Shown here piece after piece: positions 47,902 through 52,146 of a DNA stretch of 64,000 bases (position 1 is its first letter; every line of letters begins with the position of its first letter). The DNA comes from Arcobacter sp. F2176. GTDB taxonomy: Bacteria; Campylobacterota; Campylobacteria; Campylobacterales; Arcobacteraceae. The notes beneath the pieces were generated by a model, which worked only from the letters and a program-made list of their open reading frames with translations, ran no database searches and was not told the DNA's origin. The stretch covers positions 1-64,000 of the forward strand of contig NZ_PDJV01000010.1 of assembly GCF_004116465.1 (NCBI RefSeq). The letters run 5' to 3'. Position numbers and translations under genes: made by a program.

Positions 47902-49251
47902 ATGTATAAACTTTTAATCCCTTTACTAATCACCTCACTTTCTCTATTTTCTAAAGAGGTTACATTTGATGAAGCTTTAAACTTATTACTTAAAAATAAT
48001 AAAGAATTAAAATTAAAACAATTAGATATTAAAGAATCTCATGCAATATTAGATGAGATATCTGCAAATAATTATGGAGCATTAAATTTTAAAGAGACTT
48101 ATACAAACACAAATCATGCAGGTTATGCATTTAATTCAAAACTAAGTTCGAGAAAAGCTACCTTTGGAGATTTTGGATTTAGTTCATATGAAGGTCCTAA
48201 TTCTATTAAAGTTGCTCCTAACGATTTAAATTATCCAAAATCTACAGAAAATTATGAGACAAAATTAACTTATGATATTCCTTTATTTACTGGCTTTAAA
48301 ATTTCTAATTCAAAAGATATAGCAAAACTTCAAATTGAAGCAAAAAATAAAAAATATAAATATGATCAGAAACTTCTAACACTAGAATTATTGAGAGCTT
48401 ATAATGCTTGTGTTGCAGCAAAAGAGTATTTAAAGTCTACTCAAAAAGCAAAAAAAGTAACTACTTCTTTTGTAAATTTTACAAAGGAAATGCATAAAGA
48501 AGGATTAGTTACAAAAATAGATCTAAATGAAGCCCAAGTACAAGACTTAAATACAAATGTAAGATTAAAAGAAGCACAAAATAAGGTATCTCTTTCTCTT
48601 TCTTATTTGAGTTTTTTAATAGGTGATGATATATCGGATGTAAAAAGTTTTGAAGAAGTAGGTATTTCAAAAATTGATTTAAAAAGTATTCAAAAAGAAG
48701 CTATAAATAAAAGAGAAGATTTTAAATATATTGATTTAAATGTAAAATCATCAAAGAAAAATATAAAAATAGTACAATCAGATTATTATCCTAAAATTGA
48801 TGCACATATAGAATATGGATATAGTAATGATAAATTAAAAAATTTTGATGAAACACAAGATTTTTACTTAGCAAAAGTTCAATTAAATATGAAAATATTT
48901 GATATGACAAGAGAATCAAAACTAGAACAAAGTAGAATTAAATATAATAAACTGATGATACAAAAAGCACAGTTTGAAGACTCTATTAAACTTGAGATAA
49001 AACAAAATTATTTGAATTATTTATCAAATCAAGAAACTTTGGCAGAAAAATTAAAAGCTTTATCTTTAGCAGAAGAGATTTTACAAAAAGCAGAAAATAT
49101 GTATAAAAATAAGCTTATTAAGATGACAGATTTATTAATACACCAAGCATCTTTACAAAAAGCAGAAGCTGAAGTAATTATGTCAAAATTTGACCTTACT
49201 TTTATAAAAGCAAAATTAAAACTTTCAATAGGAGAGTCTTTATCAGAATAA
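47902..49251 (+). CDS. TolC-family outer-membrane channel protein
   Basis: 449 aa with a signal peptide (cut near LFSKE). Two internal repeats typical of the outer-membrane efflux protein family: long helices with EALNLLLKNNKELKLKQLDI, strands with YETKLTYDIPLFTGFK and VQLNMKIFDMTRES, and paired coiled coils (about 120-230 and 330-440). It would form a trimeric channel across the outer membrane and periplasm. No membrane-fusion or inner-membrane pump gene is beside it; downstream are a TPR-barrel and a FecR protein, so it may belong to that unit rather than to an efflux pump. Confidence 0.9.
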   Translation: MYKLLIPLLITSLSLFSKEVTFDEALNLLLKNNKELKLKQLDIKESHAILDEISANNYGALNFKETYTNTNHAGYAFNSKLSSRKATFGDFGFSSYEGPNSIKVAPNDLNYPKSTENYETKLTYDIPLFTGFKISNSKDIAKLQIEAKNKKYKYDQKLLTLELLRAYNACVAAKEYLKSTQKAKKVTTSFVNFTKEMHKEGLVTKIDLNEAQVQDLNTNVRLKEAQNKVSLSLSYLSFLIGDDISDVKSFEEVGISKIDLKSIQKEAINKREDFKYIDLNVKSSKKNIKIVQSDYYPKIDAHIEYGYSNDKLKNFDETQDFYLAKVQLNMKIFDMTRESKLEQSRIKYNKLMIQKAQFEDSIKLEIKQNYLNYLSNQETLAEKLKALSLAEEILQKAENMYKNKLIKMTDLLIHQASLQKAEAEVIMSKFDLTFIKAKLKLSIGESLSE

Positions 49252-49374: not shown

Positions 49375-50691
49375 ATGATAAAAAAGCTATTATTCTTAAC
49401 ACTTTTATTAACATCCTTTTTATTAGCTAATAAGGCAGTTACTTCTTATGAGCAAGCAGTAAAACTATTTAATGAAAAAGCTTATGAAAAAGCTTACGAA
49501 ATATTTATTTCCCTATCAAAAAATGATTTGGAAAACCAAAATCTAAACTTCTATCTTGGAAGATGTGAATATGAACAAGGGAAATATGATATAGCAATAA
49601 GTTATTATGAGAGAATACTTTTTGCTCAACCAAATAATTTAAGAGCAAAAATAGAAATAGCACAAAGTAATTTGATGCTTAAAAACTATACTCAAGCAAT
49701 AAAAGACTTTAATGCTGTTTTAGTAAATGCAGATACTCCACCAGATGTAAAAAAAAGTATTGAATCAAGACTGGCTTTCATAAGACAAACTATGCAAAAA
49801 CACTTTATAAGTGGAGCTTTAGTATTTGATTTAAGTTATGACTCAAATGTAAATAACTCAGCAACTGCAGGGGATTATTCAGTCTTTGTACCCCAATTAG
49901 GAACTGATTTAAAATTATCAAATGATACAAAAGAAGAATCAGATTACTATTATGATGCAATTGCTGTTATAAACCATGTATACAGATATAATGAAAAGTT
50001 TTCTTTAAATAACAATCTTGTAGTTTATACCCAAGATTATGATACTAAAAAAGATAGTAATATTGATGTTATATCATTTACTTCTACTCCTACCTTTTAC
50101 AAAGGAGCAAATAAATATAGCTCTGGAATAGGAATGGATTATGTTAGATACAATGACAAAGACTATTTAAAAAACTATAATCTAATACTTTCAAACTCTC
50201 ATATCTTTACTCAAACAACTTTAAATGATATTACTTTTAAACTAAGTAAAAAACTCTATGACCAACAAGAAGATAAACAAAAAAATGCTTATGTATTTGA
50301 TTTAACAAATAGCTTAAAATATAAAACAGAAAACTTTGGACTTTTTACTTTAGATACTTCATATAGTAAAGAAATAGAAATATATGAACAAAGAACAGAT
50401 GTAAGTAAAGAATCATTTGAAGTAGGCTTAGAAAATAGTTTAGCTTTACCATATAAATTTAATCTAAACACAAATATAAATAGTAAAAAAGTAATCTATA
50501 GAGATACGGATGTTAACTTTCTATCAAGAAGAGTTGATAAGATAAATAGTGTCTCACTTGGAATAAGTAGACCAATAAGAAAAAACTTAATCTTTGCCTT
50601 AAAAGCAACAGCTACAAACAATATATCAAATCAAGCACCCTTTGATTATAAAAAACAAGTTATTAAATCTTCATTGATTTATACATTTTAA
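49375..50691 (+). CDS. TPR plus outer-membrane beta-barrel protein (Slam/DUF560-like)
   Basis: 438 aa with a signal peptide (cut near LLAN). Residues 22-135 hold about three TPR motifs (YEQAVKLFNEKAYEKAYEIF, NFYLGRCEYEQGKYDIAISY, AKIEIAQSNLMLKNYTQAIK). From about 142 to the end the chain alternates polar and apolar residues with turns such as DLSYDSNVNNSATAG and ends LIYTF with a terminal Phe, the mark of an outer-membrane barrel of perhaps 14 strands. N-terminal TPR plus barrel is the architecture of Slam translocators. The following gene encodes a TbpB-like-barrel protein, as expected for a cargo. Family membership needs profile search. Confidence 0.6.
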   Translation: MIKKLLFLTLLLTSFLLANKAVTSYEQAVKLFNEKAYEKAYEIFISLSKNDLENQNLNFYLGRCEYEQGKYDIAISYYERILFAQPNNLRAKIEIAQSNLMLKNYTQAIKDFNAVLVNADTPPDVKKSIESRLAFIRQTMQKHFISGALVFDLSYDSNVNNSATAGDYSVFVPQLGTDLKLSNDTKEESDYYYDAIAVINHVYRYNEKFSLNNNLVVYTQDYDTKKDSNIDVISFTSTPTFYKGANKYSSGIGMDYVRYNDKDYLKNYNLILSNSHIFTQTTLNDITFKLSKKLYDQQEDKQKNAYVFDLTNSLKYKTENFGLFTLDTSYSKEIEIYEQRTDVSKESFEVGLENSLALPYKFNLNTNINSKKVIYRDTDVNFLSRRVDKINSVSLGISRPIRKNLIFALKATATNNISNQAPFDYKKQVIKSSLIYTF

Positions 50692-50700
50692 GGATTTAAC

Positions 50701-52146
50701 ATGAAAAAAATACTCTTATTACTTTTTATCCTTGCAAACTTTTTATTTGCTAGTATAGGACAAATAACAGCCTTAGTTGGTGATGTTAAAATCTCTAGGG
50801 ATTCGAATACTATCCTAGCTAAACTTGGAGAGAAATTAGAAAAGAATGATGTTATAAATTCTACTAAAGGTTCTAAAGCTCAAATTACCATGAATGATAA
50901 TACTATTATTACTATTGGGCAAAATTCTACTTTAAATATCTTTGATTATGTTTATGATGAGAATAAACCAAAAGACTCTAAAGCTAGTTTTGGGTTTATG
51001 AAGGGGTCTTTTAAGTCTATTACTGGAAAGATTGGAAAAATAAATAAAGAGAGATTTAAACTAAAAACTAAAAGTGCTTCTATAGGTATTAGAGGAACTA
51101 CTATTCTTGGAGACCAAAATATAATTGCTTGTACAGATGGTGCTATTACTGTTACAGCAGTAGGGATATCTGTAGATGTAGCCAAACAAGAGTTTACAAG
51201 AACTCCACAAGGTCAAGCCCCAACTACTCCAGAACCTTTAAAACAAGACACTTTAGATAAATTAGAACAATTAGCAGATACTAATAATACTACAACACCA
51301 CAAAATAGTGAGAGTAAAGAAGAAAAAAATATTTCTCCTGAAAAACCTACAGTTGTAAATAATACTCCAAATAATGATCCTGTTAAATATGAACTTCCTA
51401 CTGTGAGATATAAGAAAAAAGAACATTCTAACTTATCTGGCTTTACTACTTTAGGATATGCAAATACAATAATTACAGATAGTAATAATAATGATGCATT
51501 TGAATCTTTCAAAAATGGTGAAATGGGAATAAATGGATTTGATTCTTCTATCACGCAAGGGACAATAGGTAACTCTTCTCGAATAAATATTGACAACAAT
51601 AAAGTCCTTGATTCCACATTAAAAAATGGAACTAGTATTGGAACATTTTCTGATGAAAATGAAACATACTTATCATGGGGAGAATGGCAAGGAACATCTC
51701 AAAATAATATAACCTATGCAGGAGGATGGATTGCAGGAACAAAAACTGCAGGGAGTATCATACTTGACTTAATTGGTGGACTAACTACTAGTAAAACATT
51801 TACTGGTAATGTTATACATGGAGACATATATGATGGAAGTACGCTATACGATATATCCGATCAGAGTACTGTAAATTTTACATTTAATTTTGGTGGAGGA
51901 AATAATTCTTTTACAGGGAATATGAACTTATTATATAATGAAGGTTCAGAATACAAAATCAACTTTAATAATGGAGCTGTAAATTCTTCTGGTTTTTCTT
52001 CATCTAATTTAACTCACAATTCTAAAGGTATAACGGGAAATGTAAATGGTTCATTTTATGGAAGTGGTTCTATAAAAGCTATTGGAGGAAAATTTGACTT
52101 TGAGGATGGAGGAATAAAAGGAAGTGGTTTATTTAAAGCTCAATAA
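50701..52146 (+). CDS. FecR-domain protein with C-terminal TbpB-like barrel
   Basis: 481 aa. A signal peptide without lipobox (cut near LFAS), a FecR-type domain (about 20-175: ITALVGDVKISRD, GQNSTLNIFDYVYDE, GIRGTTILGDQ), a Pro/Thr/Asn linker (180-235) and a C-terminal domain of about 245 residues. That domain contains YLSWGEWQGTSQNN, GGWIAGTKTAG and near the end GNVNGSFYGSGSIKAIGGKF, which follow the pattern of transferrin-binding-protein-like barrels. The gene starts 9 bases after the TPR-barrel gene. It may be a secreted cargo of that protein (inference). It is not the cytoplasmic-tail FecR anti-sigma type. Confidence 0.65.
   Translation: MKKILLLLFILANFLFASIGQITALVGDVKISRDSNTILAKLGEKLEKNDVINSTKGSKAQITMNDNTIITIGQNSTLNIFDYVYDENKPKDSKASFGFMKGSFKSITGKIGKINKERFKLKTKSASIGIRGTTILGDQNIIACTDGAITVTAVGISVDVAKQEFTRTPQGQAPTTPEPLKQDTLDKLEQLADTNNTTTPQNSESKEEKNISPEKPTVVNNTPNNDPVKYELPTVRYKKKEHSNLSGFTTLGYANTIITDSNNNDAFESFKNGEMGINGFDSSITQGTIGNSSRINIDNNKVLDSTLKNGTSIGTFSDENETYLSWGEWQGTSQNNITYAGGWIAGTKTAGSIILDLIGGLTTSKTFTGNVIHGDIYDGSTLYDISDQSTVNFTFNFGGGNNSFTGNMNLLYNEGSEYKINFNNGAVNSSGFSSSNLTHNSKGITGNVNGSFYGSGSIKAIGGKFDFEDGGIKGSGLFKAQ

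Follow-up and report, generated by a model that had tools for sequence, protein, structure and literature searches.

What do two adjacent genes of Arcobacter sp. F2176 do at the cell envelope, when the first encodes a TPR protein with an outer-membrane barrel and the second joins a FecR domain to a TbpB-type barrel? We addressed this question in the window, that is, the whole stretch of 64,000 nucleotides that was analysed, where a preliminary description had proposed a candidate Slam-like type XI secretion unit. The two ORFs were confirmed, on the + strand and 9 bases apart, and encode proteins of 438 and 481 aa (Table 1). A TolC-family gene lies upstream of the pair (47902-49251), and a run of housekeeping genes lies downstream on the opposite strand. 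The TolC-type gene was considered as a member of the unit and rejected, since it adjoins the pair in the window and in one further locus (L032) and not in the other loci read.

Table 1. Positions of the features described in the text. Coordinates refer to the window unless a locus (L number) is named.
Feature	Position	Strand	Basis
Slam-like (type XI) outer-membrane translocator, 438 aa	49375..50691	+	Family alignment A1; SlipAM in full-length homologues; AlphaFold2
Translocator signal peptide, residues 1-18	49375..49428	+	Sequence inspection; helix 2-17 in model
Translocator periplasmic TPR domain, residues 19-140	49429..49794	+	Pfam TPR_2/TPR_16/TPR_19, TPR_Slam 1.6e-4 (under its cut-off); seven helices after signal peptide
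Translocator 14-strand outer-membrane barrel, residues 143-438	49801..50688	+	AlphaFold2; Foldseek to OmpG
AAGGA ribosome-binding site	50690..50694	+	Overlaps translocator stop codon (sequence)
Cargo, predicted exported, non-lipidated FecR/TbpB-barrel protein, 481 aa	50701..52146	+	
Cargo type I signal peptide, residues 1-17, without lipobox	50701..50751	+	Sequence inspection; lipobox scan
Cargo FecR domain, residues 18-170, near-invariant Cys144	50752..51210	+	Pfam FecR 1.5e-11; Foldseek; Cys144
Cargo linker, residues 171-305, mostly disordered	51211..51615	+	pLDDT under 50 at residues 194-305
Cargo C-terminal TbpB/NHBA/fHbp-type barrel, residues 306-481	51616..52143	+	TbpB profile match; VIA
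Barrel-less FecR partners (L132 apparently so)	L082:3482-4363, L083:8327-9208, L101:7531-8280, L132:2227-2937		

The signal peptide, TPRs and outer-membrane barrel previously ascribed to the first protein were borne out by sequence inspection, by Pfam and by an AlphaFold2 model (mean pLDDT 91) in which a helical TPR region precedes 14 long barrel strands. Taken alone, the sequence matched TPR_2 (6.2e-9) and, below the cut-off of that model, TPR_Slam. SlipAM (PF04575 / DUF560), a model that misses many family members, gave no match to it at E up to 10. The barrel opens with a conserved YDSNVNNS motif, and N158 is invariant. Foldseek matched the barrel to OmpG with a target-normalised TM of about 0.7, and the top match of the protein was the TPR-barrel BcsC. 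The absence of a solved Slam among the matches listed has no bearing either way. Polysaccharide export in the manner of BcsC/PelB was rejected, given the SlipAM matches among homologues, a partner that carries a TbpB barrel and the lack of glycan synthesis genes among the neighbours.

Homologues came from related genomes and, by a scan with a closer subset of the more diverse alignment A1, from named genomes that belong to Campylobacterota, Desulfobacterota and Hydrogenovibrio. Their alignments span most, and in some cases all, of the window translocator. Of 28 family members, 25 matched TPR_Slam at E up to 1, with 4.9e-10 as the best value, and SlipAM was matched by 8 at E up to 1 in one scan and by 12 at E up to 0.01 in another. 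Four homologues from different lineages, scanned singly, scored above the curated SlipAM cut-off of 22 bits with most of the model covered (L096, 2.2e-9; L039, 1e-8; L087, 8.7e-7; L093, 1.3e-6), and a fifth (L098) lay just over it. The L039 gene (genome G055) matched the window translocator at 4.2e-42 over residues 8-438. A match to the DUF560/Slam profile, as proposed, was obtained with full-length homologues and not with the window protein alone, and it is at the level of its homologues that the translocator is a member of the Slam family. Much of the FecR/TbpB-paired branch of translocators goes undetected by SlipAM as it now stands. Slam proteins as published consist of TPRs and a 14-strand barrel (PMC5449769), and Hooda et al. 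found Slam-related sequences in all proteobacterial clades, in a study whose neighbourhood survey left aside the epsilon clade.

By inspection, the cargo begins with a type I signal peptide (...NFLFA-S) and, as had been noted before, is without a lipobox; a lipobox scan of 43 cargoes found none in any FecR cargo and one in L059. The sole Pfam match of the window cargo was FecR, over residues 50-148. In its structure model the FecR domain is followed by disorder at residues 194-305 and then by a C-terminal barrel modelled with confidence. Cys144 of the FecR domain (window 51130-51132) is usually the sole cysteine of the cargo, and a conserved periplasmic CHASE2 cysteine was looked for as its possible partner and not found. 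The protein was not classed as a FecR anti-sigma factor, as no sigma gene is present among the neighbouring ORFs of the window.

The cargo sequence ends GNVNGSFYGSGSIKAIGGKF...GSGLFKAQ, and this TbpB-like C-terminal pattern, singled out in the preliminary description, is conserved in 27 homologues; this, with the TbpB_B_D and TbpB profile matches that follow, shows that it is not due to chance. Across 28 partners, Pfam detected FecR in 27 and TbpB_B_D in 14; when the C-terminal 165 residues were used alone, TbpB_B_D was matched by 21 of 27 partners, and the only other families found were FHBP_C and HphA_C. Against solved structures, a profile of the partner alignment matched TbpB (5kkx) at 1.5e-11 and also found NHBA by sequence, and its matches to HpuA and haemophilin were weak and non-significant. 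VIA of the cargo barrel gave Z 16.8 to NHBA (6cuj; 146 aligned, rmsd 2.8) and Z 13-14 to fHbp and TbpB, and Foldseek also matched it to TbpB, NHBA and fHbp. The kinship with TbpB-like families was thereby recovered from the family profile and the window model, but not from the window sequence alone, which TbpB_B_D did not match. The C-terminal barrel is likely to be the translocation signal of the cargo. Weaker Foldseek matches (E about 1e-3), to 6ovk, the cell-surface-signalling domain of PupR, and to 4m0n, a putative anti-sigma factor, are taken to cover the FecR part.

Pairing of the translocator with a FecR/TbpB-barrel gene is well supported. We surveyed 55 translocator genes in 54 loci; for four of the genes a contig end cuts the locus, and in all 51 assessable cases the immediate neighbour was a FecR and/or TbpB-barrel gene. 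A neighbour with a detected TbpB barrel was present for 43 of the 55. Eight FecR neighbours had no barrel by the local model; three of these genes are truncated at a contig edge, for two Pfam gave a weak TbpB_B_D match, and three lack the barrel. FecR partners truly without a TbpB barrel occur in Sulfuricurvum (L082, L083) and in L101, with the translocator still adjacent, and those of L123/L132 apparently lack the barrel as well. Export of the barrel therefore cannot explain everything. A reverse search, in which 298 genomes belonging to the phylum were screened for SlipAM first, found FecR/TbpB neighbours at 17 of 20 places above the cut-off, and among 60 genomes 27 encoded both a translocator and a TbpB barrel, 3 the translocator alone, 1 the barrel alone and 29 neither. 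When both were looked at, neither a non-Slam family for the barrel nor a lack of co-location with TbpB-type barrels was found. Taken together, SlipAM in the homologues and the invariable pairing suggest that the two genes very probably form a type XI-like translocator-cargo pair, as had been put forward.

Cargoes vary outside the window. In L059 (3394-6329) a lipoprotein beside a family translocator carries an OmpA peptidoglycan-binding domain in place of FecR, together with a TbpB barrel. L034 (9397-17499) encodes a giant cargo, 2,700 aa long or more, in which repeats precede the barrel, and in Hydrogenovibrio (L096:6992-14623) two tandem translocator-cargo pairs are followed by a CHASE2 cyclase.

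A link to CHASE2 cyclases lies beyond the two genes and was absent from the preliminary description. In the stretch read, a CHASE2 adenylate/guanylate cyclase gene was present in 29 of 54 pair loci, including those of Desulfobacula, a Pseudomonadota MAG and Hydrogenovibrio, and a matching phosphodiesterase gene in 22 of the 54. At 14 of the 20 places found from SlipAM, a CHASE2 cyclase was encoded within about 1.5 kb. CHASE2 was encoded in 30/30 translocator-bearing genomes and in 7/30 genomes without a translocator, in a comparison that ignores phylogeny and from which two TPR-only translocator matches were excluded. A CHASE2 adenylate cyclase cluster in Campylobacterota has also been seen independently (PMC9239204).

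The genome of Arcobacter sp. F2176 encodes one pair, three CHASE2 proteins and four FecR domains. Two of the three CHASE2 genes adjoin a FecR gene: at L065:5828-8568 a small solo FecR gene accompanies a second CHASE2 cyclase, and at L066:1045-7093 a filamentous-haemagglutinin-like gene, a membrane-anchored FecR gene and a CHASE2 protein with a GGDEF-like C-terminus stand in a row, another FecR-CHASE2 pair, perhaps with a c-di-GMP output. A further FecR gene (L112, contig C9) appears to be of the usual sigma-linked type. The third CHASE2 gene (L064:5935-8109, contig C18) has no adjacent FecR gene and has an ABC-F gene about 2 kb downstream. Its product is 58-70% identical to pair-linked cyclases of close relatives (e.g. 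L036, L037, L051, L054), and the order cyclase, pair, ABC-F is found in four relatives (L036, L037, L054, L056). Two congeners (L105, L106) have the cyclase/ABC-F arrangement without the pair; in the window and its congeners, pair and cyclase are not linked. The C18 cyclase is most likely the partner of the window pair, now unlinked from it. L064:5935-12275 (C18), L105 and L106 probably mark the ancestral site of the pair, occupied now by other small ORFs, and movement of the pair within the genus is the simplest reading.

These observations can be accommodated in a scheme in which the cargo of a type XI system serves as a transenvelope sensor in Campylobacterota, Desulfobacterota and some Gammaproteobacteria, with its barrel outside and its FecR domain in the periplasm, where it controls CHASE2; we hold this general proposal in even balance. 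Both proteins would cross the inner membrane by Sec, as their signal peptides suggest, and the first would fold in the outer membrane as a barrel of 14 strands, its TPRs forming a vestibule on the periplasmic side, consistent with predicted structure and homology. The C-terminal TbpB-type barrel of the cargo would then be recognised and passed to the surface, a step suggested by Slam-family membership and universal pairing, and the non-lipidated cargo may keep FecR in the periplasm while spanning the outer membrane through its flexible linker. FecR would finally act on CHASE2, the sensor of a class III cyclase in the inner membrane, and a surface event would thereby alter cAMP or cGMP, to which linkage and co-occurrence point. 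We favour a FecR domain held in the periplasm, since CHASE2 and FecR are both periplasmic modules, as is the OmpA domain found in place of FecR in L059. A divergent type XI pair with retained FecR is, in our estimation, rather probable, and the signalling steps from FecR to the cyclase could fall either way.

The same pair might carry out type XI secretion and nothing else, with the cargo fully exported and then released or stuck to the surface, FecR acting as an exported effector and the cyclase linkage reflecting co-regulation only. This is in keeping with a type I signal peptide without a lipobox, as in the soluble TbpBBD class (PMC8406197), and with the separation of the pair from the cyclase in the window. 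We nevertheless regard it as unlikely, as FecR is a periplasmic module whose fold matches include the signalling domain of PupR, elsewhere in this genome two further FecR genes adjoin CHASE2 genes, and one relative carries peptidoglycan-binding OmpA in the place of FecR on a lipoprotein. FecR partners that lack the barrel and still lie beside a cyclase gene (L082, L083, L132) also speak against purely secretory function. As these genes adjoin both the translocator gene and the CHASE2 cyclase, they would suit a different arrangement, in which the TPR-barrel protein is itself a surface receptor, folding of the TbpB-type barrel takes place in the periplasm and FecR passes the state of the receptor on to CHASE2, in the manner of FecA/FecR or NsrA/CyaK; the cyclase CyaK of S. 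meliloti senses protein through outer-membrane NsrA (PMC7529298). However, a TbpB barrel beside 43 of 55 translocator genes, a domain common to characterised type XI cargoes (PMC5449769, PMC12282271), and the TPR and 14-strand layout of Slam make such a receptor quite improbable.

Residues 19-81 of the FecR region match the LapA retention model weakly (1.2e-4), and 62 residues superpose on a cell-surface-anchoring domain (5ix9), which raises the idea of a LapA-type adhesin held by FecR as retention module and exported via the upstream TolC-like protein. We consider this very improbable, since the retention module scores 22.3 bits, far under its cut-off of 50, neither a type I ABC transporter nor an adaptor is encoded by the neighbouring ORFs, and a TolC-type gene recurs beside the pair in only one other locus read.

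If the cargo is indeed a transenvelope sensor, functions can be assigned to two genes of a conserved and unexplained cAMP cluster, and CHASE2, a sensor domain with mostly unknown input, gains FecR as a candidate ligand. Type XI secretion would gain a class of non-lipidated, FecR-bearing cargo in bacterial groups that had no cargo survey, and a secretion system would double as an input of cAMP/cGMP signalling.

Several known systems resemble this one in part. NsrA with CyaK, CyaD1 and CyaD2 of Sinorhizobium meliloti is similar by description, in that an outer-membrane barrel protein feeds a CHASE2 cyclase; we know of no type XI secretion in that system. The independently observed Campylobacterota cluster (PMC9239204) likewise comprises a cyclase, a phosphodiesterase, a FecR protein and a TPR protein, but the last two were not recognised there as cargo and translocator, nor was their identification as a type XI pair found in the literature searched, and the window differs in that its pair is separated from the cyclase. 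The periplasmic fold is shared with FecR/PupR anti-sigma factors, whereas here there is no adjacent sigma factor, the signal peptide is not followed by a membrane helix, and FecR is carried on a cargo predicted to be exported. TbpB, NHBA, fHbp and haemophilin/HphA have the same C-terminal barrel fold with its G-FYG...GG-F...G-F signature; unlike them, the cargo here is without a lipobox and has FecR and a disordered or repetitive linker in place of handle domains, and cargo size ranges from 392 to over 2,700 aa. With Slam1/Slam2 and HrpB the translocator shares a signal peptide, periplasmic TPRs, a 14-strand barrel and a gene beside that of a TbpB-barrel cargo. It differs from them in being so divergent that it escapes the SlipAM model, in having a partner with a FecR domain, and in the frequent linkage of its family to CHASE2 cyclases, where the genes of Slam and HrpB are linked to TonB-dependent receptors.
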